Assembly: GCF_025370775.1 (NCBI RefSeq)
Contig: NZ_JAMXEX010000014.1
Location: forward strand, 62,001-126,000
Origin: Ancylothrix sp. D3o
Lineage (GTDB): Bacteria > Cyanobacteriota > Cyanobacteriia > Cyanobacteriales > Oscillatoriaceae
Length of the DNA: 64,000 bases
Direction of reading: 5' to 3'
Made by a program: the position numbers and the translations under genes. Below the pieces are notes generated by a model. That model saw only the letters and a list, made by a program, of their open reading frames with translations. It had not been told where the DNA came from and ran no database searches. Of the stretch, positions 1 to 62,002 are shown piece by piece (within the stretch, counting starts at the first letter, position 1; each line of letters begins with the position of its first letter).

Positions 1-1
1 A

Positions 2-241: not shown

Positions 242-280
242 CCTATCCGTGTCCATCTGCGTTCATCTGCGGTTAAAAAA
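241..280 (+). repeat. Interspersed ATCTGCGGTTAA-type repeat, half element
   Basis: A 40-bp stretch ending in TTCATCTGCGGTTAAAAAA. Almost the same sequence occurs at 37475-37514, and a full palindromic form lies at 35341-35422. It starts on the stop codon of the NRPS fragment and fills a third of the gap before the hydroxylase gene, so it sits exactly where the two parts of a C-hydroxylase fusion are separated. Confidence 0.75.
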
Positions 281-363
281 ATCAACCCAGAGTCACATAT
301 CTTATAAAAACCTCACCTAGCCCAAAACACCCTCTAAAAACCCTACCTACCAAAAGAAAAAAC

Positions 364-1413
364 ATGACCAATACAGAACTAAAAAACCCCAATTCTCCCA
401 AATTAGGCACAGTTAGACGCAAAGCAGTCAGCGTGTCTCCAGAGGAATTAGTAAAAACGTCCTATTTCCAATCAGAAAACCTCCTACCGGCCATTTTTCA
501 ACCGGCAGTAGATCGATTAAACCTCGCCGCTTGGGCTACCAACAATCGAGAGTCAATTACAACGCAATTATTGAAGCAGGGCGGAATACTTTTTCGAGGC
601 TTTGAAGTCGGCGGAGTAGCCGGTTTTGAGCAGTTTATACAAGCAGTTGGCGGCGAGTTGTTAGAATATTCTTTTCGCTCAACTCCGCGTAGTCAACTAA
701 GCGGAAATATCTACACTTCCACCGAATATCCTGCCGAGCAATTCATCCCCCTTCATAATGAAATGGCCTATTCTAAAAATTGGCCTCTAAAAATTGCTTT
801 TTTCTGCGTTAAAAAAGCCGAACAAGGAGGAGAAACCCCGATAGCTGACAGCCGCAAAGTTTTTGAACGTATCGATCCAAAAATTAAAGAGCGCTTCGCA
901 CAAAAAAAAGTTATGTATGTGCGAAATTACGGGGCCGGTGTAGATTTGCCCTGGCAAAATGTCTTCAATACTGATAGCAAAAGTGAGGTAGAAAACTATT
1001 GCAATAAAACCGGAATTCAATTAGAATGGGGAAACAATAATCGCTTAAAAACTCGCCAAATTTGTCAGGCCGTTGCCCAGCACCCCCAAACAAAAGAAAT
1101 GGTGTGGTTTAATCAAGCCCACCTCTTCCACATTTCCAGTCTCGATACCGCCGTTAGGAGAGAGCTTTTAACTTCTTTTAAAGAAGAAGATTTACCACGC
1201 AATGCTTATTACGGCGATGGCTCGCCAATCGAAGATTATATTTTAGATGAAATTCGCTATTGCTATCAGCAAGAAACGATAATTTTTCCTTGGGAAGAAG
1301 GAGATGTTTTACTCCTAGATAATATGTTAGCCGCGCACGGGCGGACACCTTTTGTAGGTTCGCGTCGAGTTGTTGTAGGGATGGCAGAAGGATTTAGCTG
1401 TCAAGAAATTTAG
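364..1413 (+). CDS. SyrP/TauD-family Fe(II)/2-oxoglutarate hydroxylase, probable aspartyl beta-hydroxylase
   Basis: A 349-residue TauD/TfdA-fold dioxygenase of the SyrP type, which hydroxylates the beta carbon of an amino acid held on an NRPS carrier domain. The facial triad is visible as H131-N-E133 and distal H325 in AAHGR, with R334/R335 placed to bind 2-oxoglutarate; GGETPIADSR follows the first His. It aligns end to end with the hydroxylase domain fused to the synthetase at 4672 (GGILFRGF, YVRNYG/T, NAYYGDG versus NVYYGDG). It lies between the C-domain end (241) and an Asp-activating module (1436), so L-Asp bound to that module is the likely substrate. By resemblance it is a detached fused-type enzyme, not necessarily of the classical stand-alone TbetaH subtype. 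The start is ATG with a weak purine-rich ribosome site. Confidence 0.85.
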   Translation: MTNTELKNPNSPKLGTVRRKAVSVSPEELVKTSYFQSENLLPAIFQPAVDRLNLAAWATNNRESITTQLLKQGGILFRGFEVGGVAGFEQFIQAVGGELLEYSFRSTPRSQLSGNIYTSTEYPAEQFIPLHNEMAYSKNWPLKIAFFCVKKAEQGGETPIADSRKVFERIDPKIKERFAQKKVMYVRNYGAGVDLPWQNVFNTDSKSEVENYCNKTGIQLEWGNNNRLKTRQICQAVAQHPQTKEMVWFNQAHLFHISSLDTAVRRELLTSFKEEDLPRNAYYGDGSPIEDYILDEIRYCYQQETIIFPWEEGDVLLLDNMLAAHGRTPFVGSRRVVVGMAEGFSCQEI

Positions 1414-1435
1414 ACACATGAAAGGAAGTGTAAAT

Positions 1436-4400
1436 ATGCAAAAAGAAACAATCGAAGGGTTTAGACTATCTCCGCAGCAAAGGCATTTGTGGGAGGTTCA
1501 ACAAAATAATTGCAAACATTCCTATCGGGTTCAGGGTGCAATTCTTCTTGAAGGAAATCTCGAAAAAGAACTTCTTAAAACGGCGCTGCAAAAGGTGGTA
1601 AACCGGCACGAAATTCTGCACACAAACTTTCCCTGCTTGCCAGGAATGACATTACCTCTGCAAGTGATCACTAGCGCTGATGAAATTTCAGTTGCAGAAC
1701 ACAATTTGAGCAGTTTGCCTACTGAAGAGCAAGAATCTAAAATCGAAGAATTTATTCAAGAATTAAACCGGCTTACTTTTGATTTTGAGCGCGGCACACT
1801 TTGGCATATTTATTTACTCACTCTAGCGCCAGACAAACACCTATTGCTGGCAAACTTTTTGGCCTTAATTGCAGATAGTTATACCCTGAAAAACTTTACA
1901 CGCGAACTCAGTCTTTTTTACTCAACCAGTGGGGGCGGTGAAAACCTATCTGATGAACCAATGCAATATGCAGATATTGCTGAGTGGCAAAATGAGTTAC
2001 TGGAAGCCGAAGAATCAACAATCGGTAAAGAATACTGGCGGAAACTGAACATTGAATCTTTGGATTTATTAACGCTTCCTTGGCAAAAGAAGAATTCCGA
2101 AGCCGAATTTCAGCCGCAACTAGAAAAAATGACAATTCGGGGTGATTTATTTAAGCAACTAGAAATAATCACCCAAAAACATGAGAGTGAGATTCTTACA
2201 TTCTTGCTGACTTGCTGGCAAATTATAATGGCGCGGCTTACCAAACAGCCAAACCTAATTATCGGTGTCGCTATCGACGGCAGAAAATATCAAGAATTAG
2301 AGCTATCACTGGGGCTGCTGTGTAAATATTTACCCCTACAGCTTGACTTGCAAAATAACTTAACTTTCGCGGAATTGTGGCGGCTAGTTGATACGAATCT
2401 CAACGAAATGCACAACTGGCAAGAATACTTTAGCTGGGAAGAAATACTGCCAAAAGATCAAAATAATAGTTTCTTCCCCGTCTGTTTTGAGTGGCAAAAA
2501 CAGCCTGAAACCTACAGCAATTCTGGCGTTTCATTTTCCCTCATTCAGCAAAATTCCTGCCTAGAGCCATTCAAACTCAAACTTTCCTGCCTTCGTCGGG
2601 ATAATTCTTTAATCGCAGAATTCCACTATGATTCAGCATTATTTGACGCAGAAGATATCAAGCGCTTGTCAGAGCATTTTCAGGCGTTATTAGAAAGTGC
2701 GGTGAAAAATACCCAAGCTGACATCAATCATTTAGAAATTCTGAGTGATAGCGCCCGCCGGCAAATTCTCGTGGAGTTTAACCAAACTCAAAAAAATTAC
2801 CCGAATAACAAATGCGTTCATCAGCTTTTTGAAGAACAAGCAGAACGCGATCCAGACAGCATTGCCGTTGTTTTTGAAAATCACAAAATCACCTACCGGC
2901 AACTCAATGATCGCGCCAATAAACTAGCTCATCACCTGCAAAACTTGGGAGTTGAACCAGAGATAATTGTGGGAATTTGCCTCGAACGATCTTTAGAAAT
3001 GATTGTGGCAATGCTGGGTATTTTAAAAGCCGGTGGAGCCTATTTACCCATCGATCCAACAACACCTAAAGAGCGTAAGGCGCTGATGCTAGGAGACGCT
3101 CAGGCAAAGGTGTTGCTCACAGAAAAACGGCTGATTGAAAGCTTACCTAAAACTCAGGCAAATATTGTTTGCATAGATTCAGAAATTCCCACTTTTTCTG
3201 ACAGCTATACTGCTTGTGTTTCTGCGGAAAATTTAGCTTACATTATCTATACTTCTGGCAGCACCGGCACCCCCAAAGGCGTCGCCATTGAACACCGGCA
3301 ACTGCTTAATTACCTGTACAGCATTCAGGAAAAATTAAACCTCCCAGCCGGTGCAAATTATGCCACCGTTTCCACCTTCGCCGCCGACTTAGGAAATACA
3401 GCAATTTTTCCTGCACTTTGTTTCGGTGGTTGTTTGCACATAATATCTCAAGAACGCGCAACAAATGCAGAGGCACTCGCTGAATATTTCCGCCGCAATT
3501 CTATCGACATCCTCAAAATAGTTCCCTCTCACCTAGCCGCTCTTTTAAACTCCCCGGAAGCCCAGTTTATTTTGCCTCAGAAGCGGCTAATTTTAGGAGG
3601 AGAACCTGTCAAATGGAATTTGGTTAAAAAGGTTCGGAATTTGTCTCCTAATTGCTTGGTTTTTAACCATTACGGGCCAACAGAAACGACAGTGGGAGTG
3701 TTAACTTATGCAGTGAATTTCGATAAAATAAAAGCCGATTATGACACAGTTCCGCTCGGTCTTCCAATTGCCAATACTCAGATTTATATCTTAGATTCCC
3801 ATTTGCAGCCGGTGCCGGTAGGCATAACAGGTGAACTGCACATTGGTGGTGATAATTTAGCACGCGGATATCTCAATCGGCCAGAAGCTACAGCAGAAAA
3901 ATTTATTCGTAATTTCTTTGACACCCAGGCAGAAAAACGACTGTATAAAACCGGCGATTTAGCGAGGTATTTACCAGATGGAAATATTGAATTTATCGGG
4001 CGAATTGACAATCAAGTAAAAATTCGAGGATTCCGCATAGAATTAGGAGAAATTGAACAAGCAATCAGGCAACATCCAGACATTGCCGAGGCTGTAGTTG
4101 TGGTGCGGGAAGAAGAAATCTCAGAAAAGCGACTCGTTGCTTATTTAGTTCCCCATCAAAAACAAACACCTACCCAGAGCGAAATTCGCAACTTTTTAAT
4201 AGCAAAATTGCCTGATTACATGGTGCCTTCGGCTTTTGTAATCCTCAAAACTTTGCCTTTAACTTCTAACGGAAAAGTAGACCGGCAATCACTGCCCGCA
4301 CCTGATGAAACGCGACCAGAATTGACAGGAAACTTTGTAGCACCTCGCACCAATGCAGAGCAAACTTTAGCTACTATTTGGGTGGAAGTTCTCAAAGTTA

Positions 4401-4672
4401 AAAAAGTCGGCATTTACGATAACTTTTTTGAGTTAGGAGGACACTCCTTATTAGCCACACAAGTAATTTCCAGAGTCCGCCAAATATTTGAAGTCGAGTT
4501 GTCTTTGCAGCGCTTATTTGAGTCTCCCACTGTCGCTGATTTAGGTGTGGCAATTACCCAAAAACAAGCCGAAAAATTGGATAGTGAAATGCTGGCTCAG
4601 ATGTTAGCAGAGATGGAACAAATGTCAGAAGAAGAAATTAAACAAATTATTACCCAACAAGGAGTTAACTAA
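1436..4672 (+). CDS. NRPS module: degenerate C (interface-like)-A(Asp)-T
   Basis: A 1078-residue single module. ATG 1436 is preferred over ATG 1418 because AAAGGAAG lies 8 bases before it. The N-terminal 430 residues have the fold signature of a condensation domain (FRLSPQQ, RHEILHTNF), but the HHxxxDG motif is replaced by L-A-L-I-A-D-S at 142-148, so peptide-bond catalysis is unlikely. The adenylation domain has core A3 TSGSTGTPKG near 605 and a binding pocket read as D-L-T-K-I-G-H-V-G, essentially the L-Asp code (D235 equivalent is D651). The carrier has GGHS with Ser1004 for phosphopantetheine. A non-catalytic C domain after a hydroxylase matches the interface domain of beta-hydroxyaspartate synthetases. 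The stop overlaps the next start by one base (TAATG). Confidence 0.9.
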   Translation: MQKETIEGFRLSPQQRHLWEVQQNNCKHSYRVQGAILLEGNLEKELLKTALQKVVNRHEILHTNFPCLPGMTLPLQVITSADEISVAEHNLSSLPTEEQESKIEEFIQELNRLTFDFERGTLWHIYLLTLAPDKHLLLANFLALIADSYTLKNFTRELSLFYSTSGGGENLSDEPMQYADIAEWQNELLEAEESTIGKEYWRKLNIESLDLLTLPWQKKNSEAEFQPQLEKMTIRGDLFKQLEIITQKHESEILTFLLTCWQIIMARLTKQPNLIIGVAIDGRKYQELELSLGLLCKYLPLQLDLQNNLTFAELWRLVDTNLNEMHNWQEYFSWEEILPKDQNNSFFPVCFEWQKQPETYSNSGVSFSLIQQNSCLEPFKLKLSCLRRDNSLIAEFHYDSALFDAEDIKRLSEHFQALLESAVKNTQADINHLEILSDSARRQILVEFNQTQKNYPNNKCVHQLFEEQAERDPDSIAVVFENHKITYRQLNDRANKLAHHLQNLGVEPEIIVGICLERSLEMIVAMLGILKAGGAYLPIDPTTPKERKALMLGDAQAKVLLTEKRLIESLPKTQANIVCIDSEIPTFSDSYTACVSAENLAYIIYTSGSTGTPKGVAIEHRQLLNYLYSIQEKLNLPAGANYATVSTFAADLGNTAIFPALCFGGCLHIISQERATNAEALAEYFRRNSIDILKIVPSHLAALLNSPEAQFILPQKRLILGGEPVKWNLVKKVRNLSPNCLVFNHYGPTETTVGVLTYAVNFDKIKADYDTVPLGLPIANTQIYILDSHLQPVPVGITGELHIGGDNLARGYLNRPEATAEKFIRNFFDTQAEKRLYKTGDLARYLPDGNIEFIGRIDNQVKIRGFRIELGEIEQAIRQHPDIAEAVVVVREEEISEKRLVAYLVPHQKQTPTQSEIRNFLIAKLPDYMVPSAFVILKTLPLTSNGKVDRQSLPAPDETRPELTGNFVAPRTNAEQTLATIWVEVLKVKKVGIYDNFFELGGHSLLATQVISRVRQIFEVELSLQRLFESPTVADLGVAITQKQAEKLDSEMLAQMLAEMEQMSEEEIKQIITQQGVN

Positions 4673-7600
4673 TGAGTGATTTAATTGAACGTATCGCCTC
4701 TCTTTCTCCCGAAAAGCGTGAGTTGATGTTGCAGCTACTCAAGCAGAAAAAACAAAGCATTTCACCGGCAGAAATTCGCCCTCAAAGTCGAGAATCTAAT
4801 TTTTTTCCTTTGTCGTTTGCTCAACAGCGGTTGTGGTTTTTTGAGCAATTAAATCCGGGCAACTTTACTTATCACATCCCCGCCGCTGTGCGCCTTAGCG
4901 GCACACTTAATTTCATCGCCCTTGAGCAAAGTTTAAATGAACTTATCAAGCGTCACGAAGTTTTGCGAACTGCCTTTACTACAATCGATGGACAACCCAC
5001 TCAAATTATTACTGCAAATCAAAAAATTAAGCTTGCAGAAATTAATTTGCGTTCGCTTCCTGAAACGCAGCGTAATGGCGAAGTAGAGCGGCTAATTGTC
5101 GCAGAATCTCAACAACCTTTTGACTTATCAAAAGCACCATTATTGCGGGCTAAATTGCTGAATTTAAGCGATTCAAATTGGGTATTAATATTCAGCACAC
5201 ACCACATCATTTCTGATGGTTGGTCAATGGGGCTATTTATTGAGGAACTCGCCACTCTTTATCAAGCTTTTTGCATGGGGGAACCTTCCCCTCTCCCCGA
5301 TTTGCCGGTGCAATATGCAGACTTTGCAAGCTGGCAACGGCAGTGGTTACAAGGAGAAGTTTTAGAAACACAACTAAGTTACTGGAAAAAACAGCTAGGC
5401 GGCAATCTTCCGGTGCTGAATTTGCCAATTGACCGGCCCCGACCGGCAGTGCAAACCTTCCGAGGTGCGGTGCATAAATTCACCATTTCTAAGGCAATTA
5501 CAGAGAAGCTTAACGAATTAAGCCAGCAGGAAAGAGCCACTTTATTTATGACTTTGCTGGCAGCATTTAAAACACTGCTTTATCGCTATACAGAGCAAGA
5601 AGATATATTAGTCGGCTCCCCCATTGCTAACCGCAACCGCCGCGAAATTGAGGGATTAATTGGCTTATTTGCTAACACTTTAGTTTTCCGCACCGATCTG
5701 TCGCATAACCCAACTTTTAAAGAATTAATTGGGCGCGTGCGAGAAGTAGCCCTCGGTGCTTACAATCACCAGGATCTTCCCTTCGAGAAACTCGTAGAAA
5801 TTCTGCAACCAGAAAGAGATTTAAGCCACAATCCGCTGTTTCAAGTGTTGTTTTCCCTGCGAAATGTTCAGACACCGCAGATACAACTACCCAGACTTAC
5901 CTTAAGCAGTTTAGAAATAGAGCGCAAAACCGCCAGATTTGATTTAGCGCTTGACTTAGAAGAAGGCTCAGAAGGTATTAATGCAGCCCTTGAATACAGC
6001 CTAGATTTGTTTGATAGCAGCACTGCAAAGCGGATAGCTGGACATTTTTTAACCTTACTAGAAAGCATTGCTGATAATCCCGCTCAGCGCATTTCAAACT
6101 TGCCAATATTGACAAAATTTGAACGGCATCAACTACTTGCCGAGTGGAACAATACTCAATCGGAATTTCCGCAAGATAACTGCATACATCAACTATTTGA
6201 AACCCAGGCAGCACAGACACCTGATGCGATTGCTGTGGTTTTTGAAAATGAATCTCTAACTTATCGGGAACTGAACGAAAAAGCAAATAATCTCGCAAAT
6301 TACTTGCAAAAAATTGGTGTCAATCCAGAAACTTTAGTGGGCATTTATGTCGAGCGTTCCCTAGAAATGGTAGTCGGACTTCTCGGCATCCTCAAAGCCG
6401 GTGGCGCTTACGTTCCCCTCGATCCAGCCTATCCGCCAGAGCGCATTGCATTAATGCTGGAAGACGCACAAATTCCCGTATTATTAACTCAGAAAAAACT
6501 GTTAAAAACGCTGCCTCAAAACAGTGCCTCTACAGTCTTTTTAGATGCAGAATGGGATGCCATATCAAGCTGCACTAATCGCGCCCTATCCATCCCAAAT
6601 CCCGCCAATTTAGCCTATGTCATTTATACTTCAGGCTCAACCGGCAAACCCAAAGGAGTGCAAATTACGCACCCCTCTGTCGTCAATTTCTTAACTTCTA
6701 TTCGCCAGCAACTCGCCATCACAGATCGAGATGTTTGGCTGGCAGTAACATCCTTATCTTTTGACATTGCAGCCCTAGAAATTTTCCTGCCTATTACAAC
6801 AGGTTCTCGCCTCATTGTAGCCAGCAAAAGCGTCACATCTGACGGACAAAAACTGTTAGAAACCTTGCTAAATTCTGGCGCAACAGTAATGCAAGCGACT
6901 CCTGCTACTTGGAAAATGCTTTTAGCAGCAGGATGGCAGAAAAGCAATCAATTAAAAATACTCTGTGGTGGAGAAGCTTTACCTCAAAAACTCTCCGATC
7001 AATTGCTTTTACGGGGCGCTTCTGTGTGGAATTTATACGGCCCTACAGAAACCACAATTTGGTCTACTATTTATCAGCTTGATGGCAAAAAATTGGTTTC
7101 TATCGGTCGCCCCATTGCCAACAATGAAATTTATATATTAGACCGTTATTTAATGCCGGTTCCTGTAGGAGTATTTGGCGAACTACACATAGGAGGTGCA
7201 GGTTTATCAAGAGGTTATTTAAACCGGCCCGAATTAACCGCAGAAAAGTTTATTTCTAACCCCTTTGCAGAGGGCGGAATTCATGCTTCATTTATAGAGC
7301 ATTCTTCATCATTAACTGTTTCAAAATACCTCTATAAAACAGGGGACTTGGCGCGCTATCTGCCAGATGGAAATATAGAATTTATCGGGCGAATTGACAA
7401 CCAAGTAAAAGTTCGCGGATTTCGCATCGAATTAGGCGAAATTGAAGCGGTGATCAGCCAATACCCAACCGTGCGAGAAGTGATCGCCCTCGTTCGAGAA
7501 GACAATCCAGGTGACAAGCGTTTAGTTGCTTATATAGTTGCTAATTCCGAACTCTTGAATGGGGACAGAAACACTACTCCTAAATTCTCTGAATTTATTA

Positions 7601-10425
7601 ATAACTTGCGCGTTTTTCTCAAACAAAAATTACCTCATTACATGATGCCTTCAGCATTTGTAATGCTGGAAGCAATGCCTTTAACGCCTAACGGAAAAAT
7701 CGACCGGCGATCACTTCCTGCACCTGACACAAACACAGCAGAATTTGATAGCAATTTTGCCGAGCCTCGAACTTCAGACGAGCAAGTAATAGCAAAAATT
7801 TGGGCAGACGTTCTCCATTTAGAGCGGGTAGGAATTAACGATAATTTCTTTGAATTGGGCGGCCATTCATTGCTGGCTACTCAGGCGATTTCTCGCTTAG
7901 GAAAAGCTTTTCAAATTGACTTACCTCTACGGTTGATTTTTGAATCGCCTACCGTTGCAACTTTCAGCGAAAGTATCTCCCAATATCGGGCCGGTGAAAA
8001 ACTTAAAGCTCCCCCTATTAAGCCGGTGTTGCGGGATGGAGAATTACCCCTCTCTTTTGCTCAACAAAGACTGTGGTTTCTCGACCAATTACAACCCGGA
8101 AATCCTGCCTATAATATCCCCGCAGCAGTGCGCTTGAAAGGGCCTCTCAATGTGTCGGCATTCGAGCAAAGTTTTCAGGAAGTTATCAAGCGTCACGAAG
8201 CTTTGCGAACAACTTTTAAATCAGTGGAAGGGAAACCAGTTCAGGTTATTACTTCATCTTTTAATTTCACACTTCCCATAATAAATTTAAGGCACTTATC
8301 GGAAGTTGAAAGAGAAGCCGAAGCCATGCGACTTGCCGGTGAAGAAGTGCGACAAGCTTTTGACCTCACAAAATGGCCCTTATTGCGCGTTAATTTGCTG
8401 CAATTAGACGACACAGAATACCTGCTGTTGCTGACAATACACCACATCGTTGCTGATGGTTGGTCGCTAGGAATATTAGTGCGGGAATTAGCGGCGCTTT
8501 ACGAAGCTTTTTGTGCCGGTAAACCTTCTCCCCTCCCCGAACTTTCTATACAGTATGCAGACTATGCTGTGTGGCAAAGAAACTGGCTACAAGGAGAAGT
8601 TTTATCAGCAAAACTCGCGGAGTGGAAACAGCAGTTAGGTCAAATTTTGCCCCCGCTGCAATTACCCACAAAACAACCGCATCCTGCCGTTTATAATCAT
8701 CAAGCTGAGATTCAAAATTTCCAGCTTTCTACGCAAGTTTCAGAAGCCTTAATCGCCCTCAGCCGTCAAGAAAATGTCACCTTGTTTATGACGTTATTAG
8801 CAGCACTTCAAACGCTGCTTTATCGTTACACAAATCAAGAGGATATTGTCGTTGGTACTGACCTGGCAAACCGCACCCAAGTGGAGACAGAAGCCTTAAT
8901 TGGTTTCTTTGTCAATATCCTTGTTTTGCGAACAAATATGCGCGGTAATCCTACATTTCGGCAACTGCTTGATCAAGTCCGCGAGGTGACATTAAAAGCT
9001 TATGCTCACCAAGATTTACCCTTCGATAAATTAGTAGAAGAATTGCGTCCAGAGCGCAGTTTGAGTCAGACACCGCTGTTTCAAGTTTTGTTTGTCATGC
9101 AAAATGCGCCTATGCCGACTTTAGAACTAGCCGGTTTAACTTTAATGCCGGTGGAAATTGATAGCGGTACAGCTAAATTTGATGTGGCGTTATTCGTGTC
9201 AGAAACAGAGGGAAAAATTAACGGCAGTTGGAAATATAATTCCGACCTATTTGATAGAGAAACTATCTCTCAAATATCAAATCGTTTTGAAACCCTCTTA
9301 GGCAGCATTGTGGCGCAGCCAGACAGTCGTTTAAACACTTTAGAAATTATCCCCGAAGCTGAGAAGCAAAAACAAATTATGCAAGAAGTAAAGCGCGAAA
9401 AAAGCAATTTCAGCAAATTTAAAAGCGTCAAGCCAAAGGTAGTAGCTTTGCCGCAAGGCGACTTGATAAAAACCGAGTATCTGCACCCCGACCAACACTT
9501 TCCATTAGTAATAAAACCGGCAGTAACCGATGTTGATCTTGCAGATTGGGCAAAAAATAACCGCGAGTTTATAGAAGAAAAATTGCTCAAACATGGAGGA
9601 ATTCTTTTTCGAGGATTCACCGGCCCTGTTGTTTCTGCATTCGAGCAATTTGCTCTCTCAATTTGTTCGGAATTATTTGGTGAATACGGCGATTTACCAC
9701 GCGAAGGAGTTAGCGGCAAAGTGTACGGTTCAACTCCTTACCCAGCCGATAAAGCTATCTTATTTCACAGCGAAAGTTCGCACTTGCACCGCTGGCCTAT
9801 GAAAATTTGGTTTTTCTGCGTTCAACCGGCCCAACAAGGCGGAGAAACCCCCATAGTTGACTGCCGAAAAATTTACCAAATGCTCAACCCGAAACTGCGA
9901 GAAAAATTTGCCGAAAAGCAAATAATGTACGTCCGCAACTACACAGATGGACTAGATGTAAGTTGGCAAGATTTCTTCAAAACCGAAGACAAATCTGTAG
10001 TTGAAAAATACTGCCGGCAAGCTGGAATAGAATTTGAATGGAAAGCCGGAAATAATTTGAGAACTCGCAAAATTCGCCCAGCAATTGCTAAGCACCCAAA
10101 AACTAAAGAAATGGTGTTTTTTAATCAACTTCCTTTGCATCATATTTCCTGTTTAGATACAGCAACTCGCGCCTCTTTACTATCCGTATTTGGAGAAGAA
10201 AACCTCCCCCGCAATGTTTATTACGGTGACGGCACTCCTATTGAAGACTCGGTAATGGAAGAAATTCAGCAAATTTACGCGCAAGTTGCTGTTAGTTTCC
10301 CCTGGCAAGCAGGAGACATCATAATGCTAGATAATATGCTTGCCGCTCACAGTCGGAATCCATTTACCGGCCCACGAAAAATTGTTGTAGCAATGGGCGA
10401 AATGATTGCAGAATCAGAAGTTTAA
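4672..10425 (+). CDS. NRPS: C-A(Gly)-T-C-aspartyl hydroxylase fusion
   Basis: A 1917-residue protein. Domain order: C (about 45-480, HHIISDG 177-183 intact), A (about 500-1010, TSGSTGKPKG near 653), T (Ser1066 in GGHS), second C (about 1120-1560, HHIVADG 1257-1263 intact), then a SyrP-type hydroxylase (about 1600-1917). The A pocket reads D-I-L-Q-L-G-L-I-W, a glycine code. The hydroxylase keeps H1699-x-E1701 and distal H1893. I infer that the first C joins the upstream Asp to Gly, the second C joins Gly to the Asp loaded on the next protein, and the fused hydroxylase acts on that Asp in trans. Hydroxylase domains at the C terminus of an NRPS are the IbetaH type, linked in other siderophores to L-threo beta-OH-Asp. 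AAGGAG precedes the ATG. Confidence 0.92.
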   Translation: MSDLIERIASLSPEKRELMLQLLKQKKQSISPAEIRPQSRESNFFPLSFAQQRLWFFEQLNPGNFTYHIPAAVRLSGTLNFIALEQSLNELIKRHEVLRTAFTTIDGQPTQIITANQKIKLAEINLRSLPETQRNGEVERLIVAESQQPFDLSKAPLLRAKLLNLSDSNWVLIFSTHHIISDGWSMGLFIEELATLYQAFCMGEPSPLPDLPVQYADFASWQRQWLQGEVLETQLSYWKKQLGGNLPVLNLPIDRPRPAVQTFRGAVHKFTISKAITEKLNELSQQERATLFMTLLAAFKTLLYRYTEQEDILVGSPIANRNRREIEGLIGLFANTLVFRTDLSHNPTFKELIGRVREVALGAYNHQDLPFEKLVEILQPERDLSHNPLFQVLFSLRNVQTPQIQLPRLTLSSLEIERKTARFDLALDLEEGSEGINAALEYSLDLFDSSTAKRIAGHFLTLLESIADNPAQRISNLPILTKFERHQLLAEWNNTQSEFPQDNCIHQLFETQAAQTPDAIAVVFENESLTYRELNEKANNLANYLQKIGVNPETLVGIYVERSLEMVVGLLGILKAGGAYVPLDPAYPPERIALMLEDAQIPVLLTQKKLLKTLPQNSASTVFLDAEWDAISSCTNRALSIPNPANLAYVIYTSGSTGKPKGVQITHPSVVNFLTSIRQQLAITDRDVWLAVTSLSFDIAALEIFLPITTGSRLIVASKSVTSDGQKLLETLLNSGATVMQATPATWKMLLAAGWQKSNQLKILCGGEALPQKLSDQLLLRGASVWNLYGPTETTIWSTIYQLDGKKLVSIGRPIANNEIYILDRYLMPVPVGVFGELHIGGAGLSRGYLNRPELTAEKFISNPFAEGGIHASFIEHSSSLTVSKYLYKTGDLARYLPDGNIEFIGRIDNQVKVRGFRIELGEIEAVISQYPTVREVIALVREDNPGDKRLVAYIVANSELLNGDRNTTPKFSEFINNLRVFLKQKLPHYMMPSAFVMLEAMPLTPNGKIDRRSLPAPDTNTAEFDSNFAEPRTSDEQVIAKIWADVLHLERVGINDNFFELGGHSLLATQAISRLGKAFQIDLPLRLIFESPTVATFSESISQYRAGEKLKAPPIKPVLRDGELPLSFAQQRLWFLDQLQPGNPAYNIPAAVRLKGPLNVSAFEQSFQEVIKRHEALRTTFKSVEGKPVQVITSSFNFTLPIINLRHLSEVEREAEAMRLAGEEVRQAFDLTKWPLLRVNLLQLDDTEYLLLLTIHHIVADGWSLGILVRELAALYEAFCAGKPSPLPELSIQYADYAVWQRNWLQGEVLSAKLAEWKQQLGQILPPLQLPTKQPHPAVYNHQAEIQNFQLSTQVSEALIALSRQENVTLFMTLLAALQTLLYRYTNQEDIVVGTDLANRTQVETEALIGFFVNILVLRTNMRGNPTFRQLLDQVREVTLKAYAHQDLPFDKLVEELRPERSLSQTPLFQVLFVMQNAPMPTLELAGLTLMPVEIDSGTAKFDVALFVSETEGKINGSWKYNSDLFDRETISQISNRFETLLGSIVAQPDSRLNTLEIIPEAEKQKQIMQEVKREKSNFSKFKSVKPKVVALPQGDLIKTEYLHPDQHFPLVIKPAVTDVDLADWAKNNREFIEEKLLKHGGILFRGFTGPVVSAFEQFALSICSELFGEYGDLPREGVSGKVYGSTPYPADKAILFHSESSHLHRWPMKIWFFCVQPAQQGGETPIVDCRKIYQMLNPKLREKFAEKQIMYVRNYTDGLDVSWQDFFKTEDKSVVEKYCRQAGIEFEWKAGNNLRTRKIRPAIAKHPKTKEMVFFNQLPLHHISCLDTATRASLLSVFGEENLPRNVYYGDGTPIEDSVMEEIQQIYAQVAVSFPWQAGDIIMLDNMLAAHSRNPFTGPRKIVVAMGEMIAESEV

Positions 10426-10493
10426 TTTTTTATCATCTCTCGTTCCTTGCGTTTGTCTGGAAGAATAAAGTAGTGTTTGGAGAAATAGGAACA

Positions 10494-13400
10494 ATGCAAA
10501 CAATTAACGGTTTTCGGCTTTCCCCCCAACAAAAATATCTCTGGCTGTTGCAGCAAAACAGCCCTGCTTATCGCGTTCAAGCGGCTATTTTGATTGAGGG
10601 AAATCTTCAAACAGATAACCTCAAAAAAGCTTTAGAAAAAGTTAGCGAACGTCACGAAATTATTCGCACAAGCTTTCAGCGAAAAGCAGGGCTGAAAACT
10701 CCTATACAAGTTATCTCAGAACCTAGCTCTGTTTTCTGGAACTGGGTTAACTTAAGTGATGTTAATCCTCAACAGCAAGAAGCCAAAATCGCCGAGATTT
10801 TTGACCAAGAAAAGAGGGCTTTCTTTAACTTCGATCAAAATCCTATTTGGCGCTTATCTTTAATTAAACTTTCATCTGACAAACATATTTTGCTAGTCAG
10901 TTTGCCGGCACTGTGCGCTGATAATCGCACACTAAAAAATCTAGTTCAAGAAATCAGCCAGTGCTATGCAGCCAGCCTTCAAGGTGAAGAACTTTCCGAT
11001 GAAGTTGTGCAATACATTCAATTTTCCGAATGGCAAAACGAACTACTCGAAGATGAGGAAGCGGCGGAAGGTAAAGAATACTGGAATCAGCAAAAATTAG
11101 CGCCGCAAGCGAGTTTAAATTTGCCCTTTGAAAATAAACTAATTGACACCCAATCTCAATTTTCACCCCAAGCTTTTGAGGTAAAATTAGACCTAGCTTT
11201 GCTGGAAAAAGTCGAAGTTATCGCCCGCCAGTACAACATCTCAGTGTCTACATTTTTGCTGACTTGCTGGAAAATTTTGCTCTGGCGTTTGACCGGCAAA
11301 TCAGATATCATCGTCAGCGTATTATTCGACGGTCGAAAATACGAAGAACTAGAACCAGCGCTAGGTTTGTTTGCCAAATTTTTACCGCTGTGTAGCCATT
11401 TAAAAGAAGAGTTTTCCTTTGCTGAAGTCTTGGAGCAAGTTCAACAAAACGCTCACGAAGCATATAAATGGCAGGAATATTTTTGCCAGGAATCTCTCTC
11501 TACATTTGGTTTTGAGTTTGAAGAATATCTCGAAAATTATTCTGCTGCGGGCGCATCTTTTTCGCTCTACAAACAATATGCTTGCTGCGATTACTTCAAA
11601 GTTAAATTATCTTGTCAACGTCAAAAAGACGCGCTCAATGTTGAATTTAACTATGATCCTGCCTACCTCACAGAAAACAGCATCCGCTGTTTAGCAGACC
11701 AATTTTATACCCTCGTAGAAAGTGCAGCCAACAACCCCGAAACTGCAATTACCCAACTTGAAATTCTCAGCAAGAATGCCCGTCATCAATTATTAGTAGA
11801 ATTCAACAACACAAAAATTGATTACCCGCTAAATAAGTGCGTTCATCAATTATTTGAACAACAAGCCGAGCGCTCACCAGATAGCATTGCTGCTGTTTTT
11901 GAAAATCAGCAAATTACTTACGCAGAACTTAACAATCGCGCTAACCAAATCGCTTATTATTTGCAGCAATTAGGCGTAAAGCCAGAGGTTATTGTTGGCA
12001 TTTGCGTTGAGCGCTCTTTAGACGCGCTGGCTGGAATTTTAGGCATCCTTAAAGCCGGTGGTGCTTACCTGCCAATTGACTGTTCTATGCCAAAAGATCG
12101 CCTAGCATTGATGTTGCAAAATGCTCAGGCGACTGTCCTGTTAACCCAACAACATCTCATCGAAAAGTTACCAGAAACTCAGGCAAATATAGTCTGCTTA
12201 GATGCAGAAATTCCCTCTTTTTCTCCTGCTACTTCCGCCTCTCCTTCTCCTGAAAATTTAGCTTACGTTATCTATACTTCTGGCTCCACCGGCACCCCCA
12301 AAGGCGTCGCCATTGAACACCGGCAACTGCTCAATTACCTATACGGAATTCAGGACAAATTAAACCTCCCAGCCGGTGCAAATTATGCCACCGTTTCCAC
12401 CTTCGCCGCCGACTTGGGACACACCGTTATTTTTCCCGCTTTGTGTTCGGGTGGATGCCTGCACATTATTTCTCAAGAACGCGCAACAGATCCTCAAGCA
12501 ATTGCGGCTTATTTTCAGCAACATTCTATCGATTGTCTGAAAATTGTTCCCTCTCACCTAAAAGCTTTGTTGAGCGCTTCTAACCCCTCGCAAATATTAC
12601 CCAAAAAGCGATTAATTTTCGGTGGAGAAACTTTGAATTGGAATTTAATTGAGACCATTCAAAAATACAATCCAGGCTGTTTGATATTCAATCACTACGG
12701 GCCGACAGAAACAACTGTGGGCGTGTTAACTTATCAGGTAAAAGCGCAAAATCCTGGCATTTCTGACACAGTTCCTCTCGGCGTTCCCCTGCCAAATACG
12801 CAGATTTATTTGTTAGATTCACACTTGCAGCCGGTGCCTGTAGGAGTGGCTGGTGAATTATATATTGCCGGTGCAGGAGTTGCTCGCGGCTATCTAAATC
12901 AACCTCAAAAAACAGCAGAAAAATTTATCCCCAACCCATTCAATCAAAAAGCAGAAAATCGCCTTTATAAAACTGGTGATTTGGCTCGCTATTTGCCAGA
13001 CGGAAATATCGAATTTATCGGACGCATCGACCATCAAATAAAACTGCGGGGATTTCGTATTGAATTAGGGGAAATTGAAGCCTCGCTTTCTCATCATCCC
13101 TCTGTACGCGAAGCAGTTGTTTTGCTTCAAAACTCGAAACTCAGTAATCAGCGTTTAGTAGCCTATATTGTTTCTCCCTCAAAACTCGGATCTCAGGCTT
13201 CAGAATTAATTGATGATCTGCGTTCATTCCTCAAAGAAAAGCTGCCAGAATATATGATTCCCTCGGCTTTTGTTGTTCTGAAATCCTTACCACTAACCCC
13301 CAATGGCAAGATAGACCGGCAAGCACTACCAGCACCAGAAACCGCCGCCAATTTAACCGATAATTTTGTAGCGCCTCGCACTTCTGTTGAGGCAATTCTT

Positions 13401-14828
13401 GCCGGCATTTGGAGTCAACTACTCGCTCTTAAAAAAGTAGGAATTCACGATAATTTCTTTGATTTAGGCGGACACTCATTACTAATCACTCAGTTGTTAG
13501 CAAAAATACGCGAATCTTTTCAGGTAGAATTGCCTTTGCGTGTGTTATTTGAGGCTCCTACTGTGGCCGGTTTGGCTGAAAAAATCGAGATGAAAGAAGC
13601 GGGCAAATCTTCTGATTTCCTACCTTCCAATTTCGATATTAATGCTGAAGCTATTCTCGACTCTTCCATACATCCTGAAACTGCATTTTTGGGGCCGGTG
13701 GGTGAACCTACTCGCATTCTCTTAACAGGAGCAACCGGCTTTTTAGGAGCCTTTTTCCTCCGCGAATTGCTCCTACAAACTCAAGCAAAAATTTATTGTT
13801 TGGTGCGCTCTTCTGATGCTGAATCCGCCAAGAAACGTATCCAAACTAGCCTCGAATCTTATTCGATTTGGGACGAAAATTTAAGCCATCGTATAATGCC
13901 GGTTGCTGGAGATTTAGCTCAGCCACTTTTGGGGCTTTCCCAAGAAAAGTTTCAAGAAATGGCAAGCCTAATTGATGTCATCTATCACAATGGGGCATTT
14001 GTCAAATTTACTTATCCCTATTCATATCTCAAACCATCAAATGTTTTAGGTACTCAAGAAATTCTGCGGTTGGCGTGTCAAATTAAGCTTAAACCCGTGC
14101 ATTTCGTTTCTACTGTATCCGTTTTTTCTTCAACGCAAGAAGGCAGCGTAAAGGTTATAGGAGAGGAAGACCAACTCACCCCAGGAGAAGCCCTAAAAGG
14201 CGCTTATCCTCAGAGTAAATGGGTGGCAGAAAAGTTAATTGAAATCGGGCGTTCTCGCGGAATTCCTATCAGTATTTACCGCCCAGGACGCATTTCTGGA
14301 GACAGCAAAACCGGCACCTGCAATCCCAGCGATTCATTTTCTATATTGCTTGCAGGATGTGTGCAATTAGGATGCGTACCCGATGGAAACTGGATGATGA
14401 ATGTGGCGCCGGTGGATTATGTCAGCCGTGCAATTATTCACCTATCAAAGCAACAAGAATCGAGCGGCAAAAATTTCCACTTAGTCAACCCAGATTCTTT
14501 TTTATTGAGTGAATTAGTCGCTTGGATGCAAGCGCTTGGCTATCCAGTGGATCGGGTTTCTTATCCAACTTGGCAAGCAGAAATAATCAATCGCGCCGGC
14601 AATTCTCCCGATCATGCTTTATACCCCCTTGCCAGTCTTTTTTCCGAAAAACTTTCAGAAGCAAAAATGCCCCATTCAGAAGAGCTACAGTTTGATTGCA
14701 AAAATACGCTTAATGGACTTGCTAACACAGAGATTACTTGCCCGCCAGCAAACGCAAATTTGTTTCATACTTACTTTTCTCATCTCAGTGATCGTGGCTT
14801 AATTAATGCCCCTCATTACAACCTATAA
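10494..14828 (+). CDS. NRPS terminal module: degenerate C (interface-like)-A(Asp)-T-thioester reductase
   Basis: A 1444-residue protein. ATG 10494 with AGGA just upstream is preferred over GTG 10473. The N-terminal C-like domain has P-A-L-C-A-D-N (138-144) where HHxxxDG should be, as in the protein at 1436. The A domain gives D-L-T-K-I-G-H-V-G, an Asp code (D640). Carrier Ser995 lies in GGHS. The C-terminal 370 residues are an NAD(P)H-dependent thioester reductase: Rossmann motif TGATGFLG 1078-1085 and Y1238-x3-K1242. This should release the peptide as an aldehyde (two-electron) or alcohol (four-electron). The aminotransferase directly downstream argues for the aldehyde. There is no thioesterase. 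The A domain is almost identical at DNA level to that of the 1436 protein over its centre. Confidence 0.92.
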   Translation: MQTINGFRLSPQQKYLWLLQQNSPAYRVQAAILIEGNLQTDNLKKALEKVSERHEIIRTSFQRKAGLKTPIQVISEPSSVFWNWVNLSDVNPQQQEAKIAEIFDQEKRAFFNFDQNPIWRLSLIKLSSDKHILLVSLPALCADNRTLKNLVQEISQCYAASLQGEELSDEVVQYIQFSEWQNELLEDEEAAEGKEYWNQQKLAPQASLNLPFENKLIDTQSQFSPQAFEVKLDLALLEKVEVIARQYNISVSTFLLTCWKILLWRLTGKSDIIVSVLFDGRKYEELEPALGLFAKFLPLCSHLKEEFSFAEVLEQVQQNAHEAYKWQEYFCQESLSTFGFEFEEYLENYSAAGASFSLYKQYACCDYFKVKLSCQRQKDALNVEFNYDPAYLTENSIRCLADQFYTLVESAANNPETAITQLEILSKNARHQLLVEFNNTKIDYPLNKCVHQLFEQQAERSPDSIAAVFENQQITYAELNNRANQIAYYLQQLGVKPEVIVGICVERSLDALAGILGILKAGGAYLPIDCSMPKDRLALMLQNAQATVLLTQQHLIEKLPETQANIVCLDAEIPSFSPATSASPSPENLAYVIYTSGSTGTPKGVAIEHRQLLNYLYGIQDKLNLPAGANYATVSTFAADLGHTVIFPALCSGGCLHIISQERATDPQAIAAYFQQHSIDCLKIVPSHLKALLSASNPSQILPKKRLIFGGETLNWNLIETIQKYNPGCLIFNHYGPTETTVGVLTYQVKAQNPGISDTVPLGVPLPNTQIYLLDSHLQPVPVGVAGELYIAGAGVARGYLNQPQKTAEKFIPNPFNQKAENRLYKTGDLARYLPDGNIEFIGRIDHQIKLRGFRIELGEIEASLSHHPSVREAVVLLQNSKLSNQRLVAYIVSPSKLGSQASELIDDLRSFLKEKLPEYMIPSAFVVLKSLPLTPNGKIDRQALPAPETAANLTDNFVAPRTSVEAILAGIWSQLLALKKVGIHDNFFDLGGHSLLITQLLAKIRESFQVELPLRVLFEAPTVAGLAEKIEMKEAGKSSDFLPSNFDINAEAILDSSIHPETAFLGPVGEPTRILLTGATGFLGAFFLRELLLQTQAKIYCLVRSSDAESAKKRIQTSLESYSIWDENLSHRIMPVAGDLAQPLLGLSQEKFQEMASLIDVIYHNGAFVKFTYPYSYLKPSNVLGTQEILRLACQIKLKPVHFVSTVSVFSSTQEGSVKVIGEEDQLTPGEALKGAYPQSKWVAEKLIEIGRSRGIPISIYRPGRISGDSKTGTCNPSDSFSILLAGCVQLGCVPDGNWMMNVAPVDYVSRAIIHLSKQQESSGKNFHLVNPDSFLLSELVAWMQALGYPVDRVSYPTWQAEIINRAGNSPDHALYPLASLFSEKLSEAKMPHSEELQFDCKNTLNGLANTEITCPPANANLFHTYFSHLSDRGLINAPHYNL

Positions 14829-14877
14829 GGGCGCAATGTACAACATCCTACCTGCTTAAATTTTTGGAGATTTGAAA

Positions 14878-16263
14878 ATGAATGAATCCTTACAGCAAAA
14901 ACATCTATTAGCCCTGATTGAGCGCTACACCCAACGCACAAAAACTTCTAAAAGTTTCGCCCAAAAATATCGGCCTGTTCTTGCTGATAATCGCGCTTCT
15001 GATGGGTTTCGCCTTCCTGTTAAAGAGATGTTTTATCCCCTTGTGGCAAAGCAAACCCTAGGCTCTAAAATGTGGGATATCGATGGCAATGAATACATCG
15101 ACATCACGATGGGATTTGGTATCAATCTTTTTGGTCACAATCCGTCTTTTATTAAACAAGCTTTATTAGAGCAACTTGATAGCGGTTTGCAAATTGGCGC
15201 TCAAGCAGAATTGGCTGGAGAAGTTGCAGAATTAATCTGCGAACTAACAAAAATGGATCGCGTGGCTTTTTCTAACACCGGCACCGAAGCAGTAATGGCA
15301 GCCCTACGTTTAGCAAGAGCCGCAACTAAACGCAATAAAATTGCTTTATTTTCTGGTTCTTATCACGGTCATTTTGACGGAATTCTGGCAATTCAAAAAA
15401 AGATAAATGGCGATTTACAAACAATGCCAAAAGCGCCCGGAATTCCCGCTAATTTTGTTGAAAATGTTTTAGTTTTAGATTACGCAAACCCACAATCCCT
15501 GGAAATTATCAAAGCTCACCGGCACGAATTAGCAGCAGTTCTAGTTGAGCCGGTGCAAAGTCGCCGCCTCGATTTGCAGCCTAAAGAATTTCTCCACCAA
15601 CTTAGAAAATTAACAAAAGAATCAGAAATTGCCCTCATTTTTGATGAAATGGTTTCCGGTTTCCGAATTCATCAAGGCGGCGCCCAAGCGTGGTTTGGCA
15701 TTGAGGCAGATATCGCCACCTACGGCAAAATTGTCGGGGGTGGTATGCCCATTGGAGTTATCGCCGGAAAAGCCGCTTATATGGATAAAATTGACGGCGG
15801 TTTGTGGAACTATGGCGATGATTCTTACCCCCAGGTAGAAAAAACAATTTTTGCCGGCACTTTTTGCAAGCACCCAATGGCTTTGGCTGCTGCACGTTCT
15901 GTGCTTTATTATCTGAAAAATCAAGGCCCAATTCTTCAGCAACAGTTAAATTATCGAACTTCCCAGCTAGTCGAAACTTTGAATGCTTATTTCAAAGAAA
16001 ATGAGCTTTCTGTCTGGCTTGTTAATTTCGGTTCGCAATTTCGCGCTGCGGCTTCTATTGATATAGATCCCTTCCTATTTCATTTACTGGAAAAGGGTAT
16101 TTTTATTTGCGAAGGTCGTAGCTGTTTTCTCTCGACAGCCCACACAGATCAAGATATGAATCGCATCATTGAGGCGGTTAAAGAGAGCGTTCAAGAAATG
16201 CAAGAAGGAGGGTTTTTTCCGGTTCCTTCTCATCAGAAAAGCACCTGTACATCTTTAAAGTAA
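14878..16263 (+). CDS. Class III (GSA-AT-like) PLP aminotransferase, probable peptide-aldehyde transaminase
   Basis: A 461-residue fold-type I aminotransferase resembling glutamate-1-semialdehyde 2,1-aminomutases. ATG 14878 is chosen over TTG 14872 because TTTGGAGA sits 7 bases upstream. Visible motifs: SNTGTEAVMAALRLAR (cofactor phosphate binding), SYHGHFDG, a D-E-M-V-S-G-F-R segment with the PLP-binding Asp, and the Schiff-base Lys284 in YGKIVGGGMP. It is last in the NRPS operon, about 50 bases after the reductase-ending synthetase. In myxochelin biosynthesis the GSA-AT-like MxcL converts the reductase-released aldehyde into an amine, and the same role is inferred here. A housekeeping HemL role is less likely given the operon position, but the family signature alone cannot exclude another amine or aldehyde substrate. 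Confidence 0.8.
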   Translation: MNESLQQKHLLALIERYTQRTKTSKSFAQKYRPVLADNRASDGFRLPVKEMFYPLVAKQTLGSKMWDIDGNEYIDITMGFGINLFGHNPSFIKQALLEQLDSGLQIGAQAELAGEVAELICELTKMDRVAFSNTGTEAVMAALRLARAATKRNKIALFSGSYHGHFDGILAIQKKINGDLQTMPKAPGIPANFVENVLVLDYANPQSLEIIKAHRHELAAVLVEPVQSRRLDLQPKEFLHQLRKLTKESEIALIFDEMVSGFRIHQGGAQAWFGIEADIATYGKIVGGGMPIGVIAGKAAYMDKIDGGLWNYGDDSYPQVEKTIFAGTFCKHPMALAAARSVLYYLKNQGPILQQQLNYRTSQLVETLNAYFKENELSVWLVNFGSQFRAAASIDIDPFLFHLLEKGIFICEGRSCFLSTAHTDQDMNRIIEAVKESVQEMQEGGFFPVPSHQKSTCTSLK

Positions 16264-16316
16264 CTTAGAACGAACGATGGGAATAATCATACAAACTAGA
16301 TATCATTAGAAAATGC

Positions 16317-16332
16317 CTACCCTGAAGGGTAG
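16317..16332. terminator. Short perfect hairpin after the NRPS operon
   Basis: CTACCC-TGAA-GGGTAG forms a 6-bp stem with a tetraloop (7 bp if the loop closes further), 54 bases after the aminotransferase stop. It is followed by CTAAAAATTG rather than a T run, so it may be a weak terminator or an RNA processing site. Confidence 0.35.
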
Positions 16333-16438
16333 CTAAAAATTGAGCCGAAATACCTCCTTAATTACTGATGGCGAACTAACGAATAATTAGGTAGAATTCC
16401 ACCTTAATTAAATTAAAATCCATAATTTTATTGACTTT

Positions 16439-16464
16439 CTCCCCCTAAATTGTTTTGGGGGGAG
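16439..16464. other. GC stem-loop in the leader of the MoxR operon
   Basis: CTCCCCC and GGGGGAG pair across a 12-base loop, 98 bases before the MoxR start. The 299-base gap 16264-16562 otherwise holds AT-rich sequence and no gene that I can support. Confidence 0.4.
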
Positions 16465-16562
16465 CATAGTTCTTGATTTAGGCTAGGCGGCGGGATATCA
16501 TGGAACTAAGGCAATAGAGCCGTTAATATGAGTAACCAGCATTTTTACCTAGCCAAATAATT

Positions 16563-17525
16563 ATGGATAAAGCAATTACAGAAAATCAGGGCCGGTGTGG
16601 CAGAAAAACCTATCAAAGAATTCTCAACAACATTGAAAAGGTAATAAAAGGGCAATCAGCAGCAATCAGAAAATTGTTGTCAGCCTTTGCAAGCGGGGGG
16701 CACGTTTTGCTAGAAGATTATCCGGGTACTGGTAAAACAACCCTAGCAAAAGCCCTAGCTTTCTCGGTAGATGTAACATTTAAGCGTATTCAATTTACGC
16801 CCGATCTTTTACCTTCCGATATTTTGGGAATTTCCATGCTTGACCCCAACGAACGCACTTTTCATTTCCATGAAGGCCCGATTTTTGCTAATATTGTTTT
16901 GGCTGATGAAATCAATCGCTCCTCACCGCGAACTCAGTCAGCTTTGTTAGAAGCAATGGCAGAATTCCAAGTTAGCATTGATGGAAATTTGCGGAAACTT
17001 AAAGACCCATTTTTTGTAATTGCTACTCAAAACCCAGTAGAATCTCGTGGGACTTATCCACTTCCAGAAGCCCAAATGGATCGCTTTGCACTTCAGTTTA
17101 GTTTAGGATACATTTCGCCAGAAGACGAGGTTAACCTGCTTTCCGATCAAATTCAGCAGCATCCAATTGATGCACTTCAACCCTGTGTCCAATTAGAGGA
17201 TTTAATATTATTAAAACAGCAAGTCAAACAAACGCGAATAAGCGAAGAATTGAAACGTTATATCGTCGATATTGTCAATGCCACTCGGTCAGCAGAAGGC
17301 GTACAATTAGGGGCAAGTCCGAGAGCATCCCTCGCTTTAATGAAAATTGCTCAAGCATTAGCATTGTTTGATGGCTATGAATTTGTTACACCCGAACATA
17401 TCCAAGAACCGGCCATTTCAGTGATTGCTCACCGGCTAGTAATGGAACCCCAAGCGCGTTTTTCTGGAAAAACCGCCGCCAGCGTTGTTGAAGAAATTAT
17501 TACAACTCTTCCTGTACCGGCCTAA
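16563..17525 (+). CDS. MoxR-family AAA+ ATPase
   Basis: A 320-residue MoxR AAA+ ATPase, a chaperone-like ATPase that typically works with DUF58/VWA partners. Walker A is G-T-G-K-T-T in EDYPGTGKTTLAKAL near residue 56. Walker B is VLADEINR, followed by SPRTQSALLEAM. Sensor 1 ATQNPVE and the PLPEAQMDRF arginine-finger segment are present, and the length is normal. It starts the three-gene set MoxR-DUF58-transglutaminase (3-base gap to the next gene, then a 4-base overlap), a conserved arrangement whose role is poorly known and often linked to the cell envelope. Located 300 bases after the NRPS operon, it is most likely an independent unit. Confidence 0.9.
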   Translation: MDKAITENQGRCGRKTYQRILNNIEKVIKGQSAAIRKLLSAFASGGHVLLEDYPGTGKTTLAKALAFSVDVTFKRIQFTPDLLPSDILGISMLDPNERTFHFHEGPIFANIVLADEINRSSPRTQSALLEAMAEFQVSIDGNLRKLKDPFFVIATQNPVESRGTYPLPEAQMDRFALQFSLGYISPEDEVNLLSDQIQQHPIDALQPCVQLEDLILLKQQVKQTRISEELKRYIVDIVNATRSAEGVQLGASPRASLALMKIAQALALFDGYEFVTPEHIQEPAISVIAHRLVMEPQARFSGKTAASVVEEIITTLPVPA

Positions 17526-17528
17526 AAA

Positions 17529-61862: not shown

Positions 61863-62002
61863 TGTCCTAAAAAAAATCTTACCAACCTCAGCATTTTTAA
61901 CACAAAACTGAAAATTTTATCAGCCAAAAATGAATAAAATCTTAAGAAATGTTGAAAAGCCACACAAAAGCTTTTGAAATAGCTACTAATAAGTTGATGG
62001 GG

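Follow-up and report, generated by a model that had tools for sequence, protein, structure and literature searches.

A probable reductive-amination release cassette in a cyanochelin-like lipopeptide siderophore cluster of Ancylothrix sp. D3o

How is a peptide released when the last nonribosomal peptide synthetase (NRPS) of a siderophore-type cluster ends in a thioester reductase (R) domain and the next gene encodes an aminotransferase? This question is raised by a stretch of 64,000 nucleotides, hereafter the window, that spans positions 62001 to 126000 of contig NZ_JAMXEX010000014.1 (C14) in the 6.57 Mb genome of Ancylothrix sp. D3o. The window carries only the end of the cluster, the first synthetase of which starts at C14:42171, ca. 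20 kb upstream of it. The R domain and the stand-alone aminotransferase (AT) that follows it probably form a cassette that releases a cyanochelin-like lipopeptide siderophore by reductive amination, in which a peptide aldehyde would be converted by AT into a terminal amine. In the mechanism proposed, the last module would load Asp and its beta carbon would be hydroxylated by a TauD-family enzyme; R would use NAD(P)H for a two-electron reduction of the peptidyl thioester to a free aldehyde, from which AT would form a primary amine by transamination. The C-terminal residue would end as an N3-acylated 3,4-diamino-2-hydroxybutanoate, in which the amine replaces the carboxyl ending the chain and the alpha-hydroxycarboxylate iron-binding pair is left untouched. 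On chemical grounds chelation should survive, since the iron-binding alpha-hydroxycarboxylate is not the carboxyl being reduced.

Reductive release followed by transamination had been put forward earlier from the letters of the window alone (the original prediction), based on a last synthetase ending in a thioester reductase with its Tyr-Lys pair and on a next gene resembling glutamate-1-semialdehyde (GSA) aminotransferases; both gene assignments are borne out. The protein encoded by the open reading frame (ORF) 10473-14828 matches the thioester reductase model TIGR01746 with 362.7 bits, for a cut-off of 213.35, and PF07993 at 1.7e-71, the closest solved relative of its R domain being the MxaA reductase (4u7w, 4e-101). 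By motif position, the catalytic residues are Thr1214, Tyr1245 and Lys1249. Tyr and Lys are kept in all 75 R stretches compared, including this one, and the position of the catalytic Thr is occupied by Ser in 10 and by Ala in 4 of the 74 stretches with a letter there. The stretches having Ala with Tyr and Lys retained come from L109, L130, L142 and L152, three of which are loci with FbnL/FbnM-like genes (see below).

The gene after R is a separate ORF of 461 aa encoding a class III aminotransferase (PF00202, 3.6e-49) with an intact pyridoxal phosphate (PLP) lysine, Lys284, and Asp256, both conserved in 73 of the 73 AT stretches compared, its own included. The ORF list places its start at a TTG in 14872, but the ATG at 14878, located 49 bp after the stop of the last synthetase, is the better start because a GGAG precedes it with a spacing of 8 bases. 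Over residues 6-448 the protein aligns with the MycA aminotransferase domain (6kfm) at 7.5e-157, versus ca. 1e-56 for HemL structures. Its best NCBIfam matches are HemL models, all under their cut-offs (265.2 and 262.4 against 527.3 for TIGR00713), while a true HemL scoring 615.4 bits against that same cut-off is encoded on another contig of the genome (C7:211815-213077). What the original prediction had named as telling against it, namely an aminotransferase grouping with HemL in a genome with no other HemL, is thus not the situation found here, AT also falling outside HemL in both trees described below. When compared to a Tychonema relative, dN/dS is 0.13 for AT and 0.16 for R, which indicates that both genes are under constraint; values for AT range from 0.10 to 0.14 in four pairs, with dS above 2 in two pairs and one R pair giving no value.

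AT was searched for in 388 genomes of the order, 140 of which have a match at 1e-130 or better when stand-alone and polyketide synthase (PKS)-embedded forms are pooled. Sixty stand-alone AT regions were hand-picked, one per genome, with better matches taken first and several rows passed over, and in 59 of them R is located at most 1.3 kb upstream of AT (39/40 with long flanks and 20/20 from lower in the list), a pairing that is more than chance. As counted from maps of these regions, the adenylation (A) domain before R displays an Asp code (DLTK or DLSK) in 18, with an epimerisation (E) domain intervening in two of them, and the code DSALIAEVW in 13; such varied codes indicate that the R-AT cassette is not tied to one amino acid. 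A methyltransferase gene occurs between R and AT in 12/60 regions and FbnL/FbnM-like genes in 5/60. Five of the 18 Asp-ended regions (L126, L144, L148, L149 and L155) have this methyltransferase, which suggests N-methylated amine ends on residues of the beta-hydroxyaspartate type. In the reverse search, R was matched at 1e-70 in 62 of 120 genomes; in 30 loci, corresponding to the best match of 30 genomes including this one, R is followed by AT within 1.5 kb in 20 cases, by an aldo/keto reductase in one, and by neither in nine.

That one case allows the two partners of R to be compared. Directly behind R, an aldo/keto reductase gene is found in G039, a Microcoleus-type genome (L191, G039:C1:6672000-6690000), versus an AT gene in Microcoleus vaginatus HSN003 (L025), and their R domains share 94.8% identity. 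At the DNA level, the two clusters are 94% identical along 3.3 kb and 88% along another 4.4 kb until the last ca. 30 bp of R, and homology resumes past the exchange with 91% over 1.3 kb and then, ca. 4 kb later in G039, with 97% over 2.5 kb. The G039 gene matches PF00248 (3.2e-25), and G039 encodes a true HemL but lacks any member of the AT family, whereas the three relatives searched alongside have both. Loss of AT in G039 would be the simpler direction since the nearest relatives of the window in two families carry AT, and the aldo/keto reductase should give an alcohol end in place of the amine. Because both enzymes use a carbonyl and alternate behind one R, the exchange points to the released aldehyde as the natural substrate of AT, and the occurrence of a dedicated aldo/keto reductase further suggests that R stops at the aldehyde in G039. 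An R followed by an aldo/keto reductase is also found in Nostoc sp. NIES-3756, in a different synthetase cluster.

Phylogenies were built from 96 distinct AT rows, MxcL not being part of the set. From the first tree (80 rows) 16 were omitted, corresponding to Bacillus and Variovorax domains, distant rows and the partial L037; a more careful tree (66 rows) also omits L003, L004, L059, L058, L097, L095, L034, L047, L085, L131, L115, L103, L113 and L084. In the latter, 48 R-linked ATs are on one side of a branch with a support of 100/99, the remainder being 16 PKS-embedded domains and two HemL-like rows far outside. The corresponding clade of the first tree comprises 54 rows (SH-aLRT 84) and also includes L113, L085 and L084, the locus of the last being too short to show R. 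ATs from loci labelled here as Dmaq-like, based on gene order and similarity, belong to the R-linked clade, namely those of L093 (Gloeocapsa sp. PCC 7428), L094 and L096 (Agrobacterium-group plasmids), L121, L130 and L135. In L093, the FbnL/FbnM-like assignment concerns two small adjacent genes and relies on their position and on their likeness to a pair of L094 genes called "siderophore biosynthesis protein". Judging from their gene order, these loci would make Dmaq. In the anachelin cluster, genes 11-15 are assigned to Dmaq production by Calteau et al. 2014, and the key to their figure includes entries for reductase, methyltransferase and aminotransferase (PMC4247773), so that the clade has a member type whose proposed chemistry was already suggested in print. 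In the careful tree, PKS-embedded domains surround the R-linked clade; an origin of the R-linked ATs from such a domain is not claimed, a single clade of embedded domains being unrejected by the AU test (p 0.288). Overall, the R-linked clade, the aldo/keto reductase behind the same R in a sister genome and the presence of another HemL support the reading of release with transamination.

Beta-hydroxyaspartate had also been expected at the reductase, and at the level of the codes this agrees with what is found. Each A domain was aligned to the last one to obtain its code, at positions that follow the PheA numbering, and all amino-acid readings follow the usual conventions. The last three codes are DLTKIGHVG (Asp), DILQLGLIW (Gly) and DLTKIGHVG (Asp), the two Asp modules being identical in code. 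A TauD domain of the Asp-beta-hydroxylase kind is encoded beside each of them, and these enzymes would be the source of the predicted beta-hydroxylation. With C standing for condensation, T for thiolation and I for interface domains, the order in the window is TauD, I-A(Asp)-T, C-A(Gly)-T-C-TauD, I-A(Asp)-T-R and AT (Table 1). The condensation-like domains opening both Asp modules (window ca. 1418-2770 and 10473-11792) have no HHxxxDG motif, which is kept in the preceding C domains, whether lone or C-terminal. The idea and the name of interface domains reportedly go back to Reitz in 2019, and the missing motif is the only feature tested here.

Table 1. Position of the release cassette and of the preceding cluster genes in the window
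Feature	Position	Strand	Evidence
Stand-alone TauD-family protein, candidate Asp beta-hydroxylase (presumed partner: first Asp module)	364..1413	+	PF02668 1.1e-46
NRPS module I-A(Asp)-T; N-terminal condensation-like domain without HHxxxDG (interface-like)	1418..4672	+	Domains; code DLTKIGHVG
NRPS C-A(Gly)-T-C-TauD; fused C-terminal candidate Asp beta-hydroxylase, residues 1617-1907	4672..10425	+	Domains; code DILQLGLIW; HHxxxDG motifs
Last NRPS, I-A(Asp)-T-R	10473..14828	+	Domains; code DLTKIGHVG
Terminal thioester reductase (R) domain, Thr-Tyr-Lys intact	13698..14825	+	TIGR01746 above cut-off; MxaA R 4u7w 4e-101
Stand-alone class III aminotransferase (AT), R-linked clade	14878..16263	+	PF00202; MycA aminotransferase domain 6kfm 7.5e-157; trees; PLP Lys284

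DNA upstream of the window was read as stretches L017 and L018. Synthetase genes occur there in the order FAAL-like ligase, acyl carrier protein (ACP), C-A-T-Cy-A-T (Cy, cyclisation domain), C-A-T-E, C-A-T, aspartate decarboxylase and a lone C domain. The label FAAL is ours, since the best specific models for the first ligase are fatty-acid--AMP ligases that all remain under cut-off (NF004509, 453.4 against 775); an ACP comes next. The first module has the code DAEDIGTI-, and the second, DMYNFGVLW, resembles what we take to be a Cys code and follows a domain that carries the cyclisation-type DxxxxD motif. The following code, DFWNIGMVH, is presumably that of Thr. The next A domain, of which the first three code positions are not reliably read, has an A4 stretch FVDSVWE plus VVSLAD that we assume to denote beta-alanine, a reading that fits the adjoining PanP-type aspartate 1-decarboxylase (629.1 bits, cut-off 606.1). 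Among the scanned cluster proteins, no match was found to a ketosynthase family, nor to a thioesterase or other dedicated macrocyclising family.

Three known systems resemble this locus. For myxochelin B, the MxcG reductase is described as releasing an aldehyde which the stand-alone, GSA-type MxcL transaminates (PMC8400222, PMC3870968). The window shares with it a terminal thioester reductase on an NRPS and a stand-alone aminotransferase, AT being linked to MxcL by analogy, but differs in having Asp and not Lys in the last module and a lipopeptide of the beta-hydroxyaspartate type instead of a catecholate; its NRPS scores 710.1 with the MxcG equivalog NF038078, the cut-off of which is 2300. 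Dmaq formation in clusters of the anachelin and fabrubactin type, which likewise concerns cyanobacterial siderophores, also involves an R with a downstream AT, and ATs of Dmaq-like loci fall in the same clade. Eight Dmaq-like loci were compared (L093, L094, L096, L121, L130, L135, L142 and L152): in seven, a methyltransferase gene separates R from AT and a DAPT code precedes R, L121 having neither, and all eight have one or both FbnL/FbnM-like genes. In positions 1-20000 of the window, no match was found to a methyltransferase or to FbnL/FbnM-like genes, and there is no DAPT code. The third system, cyanochelin B of Leptolyngbya sp. NIES-3755, is described as having a fatty-acyl ligase, a thiazoline, two beta-hydroxyaspartates, a fused and a free hydroxylase and a terminal reductase (PMC12628792). 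The window cluster likewise has a cyclisation domain with a Cys-like code, two Asp modules accompanied by a fused and a free hydroxylase, a terminal R and, at its start, a putative FAAL, although, unlike cyanochelin B, it has no ketosynthase family among its scanned proteins. In cyanochelin B a reduced Gly forms the end and no AT is encoded in the 9 kb that follow the R gene, whereas in the window the last Asp itself would be reduced and AT follows. No account of R and AT acting on beta-hydroxyaspartate was found in the literature searched, coverage of which is incomplete, so that one may be in print; amine release being known from systems of the myxochelin and anachelin kind, the new element here would be the diamine end derived from beta-hydroxyaspartate.

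Several points weigh against release as an amine. The cluster is known from its genes alone. By the account in PMC3870968, the MycA aminotransferase domain acts on a polyketide intermediate inside the synthetase, so that homology alone does not establish an aldehyde as the substrate of AT. The sample of AT loci is biased towards good matches and yet includes one, L113, with no R in view. The nine R loci with neither partner include three that are Asp-ended (L192, L193 and L194), hence AT is not obligatory. The exchange between G039 and HSN003 is not a clean one-for-one event, as ca. 4 kb of other DNA lies downstream in G039, and the preceding module has the code DFWNVGFVW in G039 versus a Gly code in HSN003. 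Finally, none of the four FbnL/FbnM-like genes of L093 and L094 matched a Pfam or NCBIfam model.

Among other explanations, the one that survives best, though rather unlikely, is a four-electron reduction by R itself, with an amino alcohol as main product and AT serving a minor branch. Among PDB entries, R is matched best by MxaA, an alcohol-forming reductase, and R without either partner is common. Moreover, cyanochelin B, which represents the closest known product class, is reported to end in an alcohol, ethanolamine, presumed to derive from reduced Gly (PMC12628792); an R of this type can, by analogy, make the alcohol alone. Opposed to this are the purifying selection on AT, the retention of R with AT in all but one of the 60 loci and the use of a dedicated aldo/keto reductase in G039. 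If R can go on to the alcohol, both ends may form, as for myxochelins A and B, of which the alcohol and amine forms are both described (PMC8400222).

A less probable outcome is that the aldehyde cyclises, either as an imine with an internal amine or as a hydroxy-butyrolactone with its own beta carboxylate, or that the new amine and this carboxylate close to a 3-hydroxy-pyrrolidin-2-one. There is a precedent in nostocyclopeptide, for which an R-released aldehyde is described as giving a macrocyclic imine (PMC12184294), and from chemical reasoning the spacing of the amine to the beta carboxylate permits a five-membered lactam. The lactam would, however, consume the iron-binding carboxylate, and no thioesterase or macrocyclising family was found among the scanned proteins, even if closure of the imine or lactam needs none.

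It is more improbable still that AT makes or alters a building block, as PKS-embedded aminotransferases do for beta-amino fatty acids, and leaves the released peptide alone. The nearest solved structure is that of MycA (mycosubtilin), and the cluster has a FAAL-like start, as reported for puwainaphycin (PMC4219810). The MycA domain is, however, embedded in a PKS/NRPS protein, whereas AT is a separate gene in a clade apart from such domains; with no ketosynthase among the scanned proteins, and no ketosynthase module ahead, there is no beta-keto substrate for AT, and an aldo/keto reductase occupies its place in G039; on these two grounds PKS-type beta-amination was rejected. As to AT being a HemL duplicate, that is a second housekeeping glutamate-1-semialdehyde aminomutase located beside the cluster by accident, the best NCBIfam matches would be in its favour, but it is refuted by their sub-cut-off scores, the true HemL elsewhere, the position outside HemL in both trees and the far closer match to MycA.

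The pattern extends beyond the single locus considered earlier, R-AT pairing being found across many genomes. Few siderophores are known from cyanobacteria (24 structures by one count, PMC12628792), yet R adjoins AT in 59 of the 60 genomes sampled out of the 388 searched. If the terminal amine is correct, a basic amine would terminate many of these products, which affects charge and behaviour at membranes as well as uptake and the photochemistry of the iron complex. The exchange between such similar clusters would make the question of the amine testable from two strains without genetics. More tentatively, and with slightly less than even confidence, siderophore synthetases of cyanobacteria may share an exchangeable slot behind one type of R, occupied by nothing, an aldo/keto reductase, AT, or AT with an N-methyltransferase and leading to alcohol, amine or methylated amine ends. 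Dmaq would then be one specialised use of this wider slot, and the 3,4-diamino-2-hydroxybutanoate of the window could bind metal with three donors (amine, hydroxyl and carboxylate) or form a hydroxy-pyrrolidinone by ring closure.

Among named organisms, Tychonema and Microcoleus have the closest relatives of AT, at 86-87%, compared to 75-76% for the homologues of three genomes of the same family, which may mean that the cluster was moved by transfer. In L018:7678-12711, the beta-alanine-like code adjoining the PanP-type decarboxylase suggests that the cluster supplies its own beta-alanine. Before the synthetases, L017 and L018 encode TonB, a penicillin-amidase-family protein, a major facilitator superfamily (MFS) transporter, a PepSY protein and a TonB-dependent receptor with an AMIN domain. 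In the pyoverdine pathway, PvdQ takes the acyl chain off; the penicillin-amidase-family protein (L017:3842-5959), which lies beside a siderophore cluster that opens with a FAAL-like ligase, could remove an acyl chain in a similar manner.

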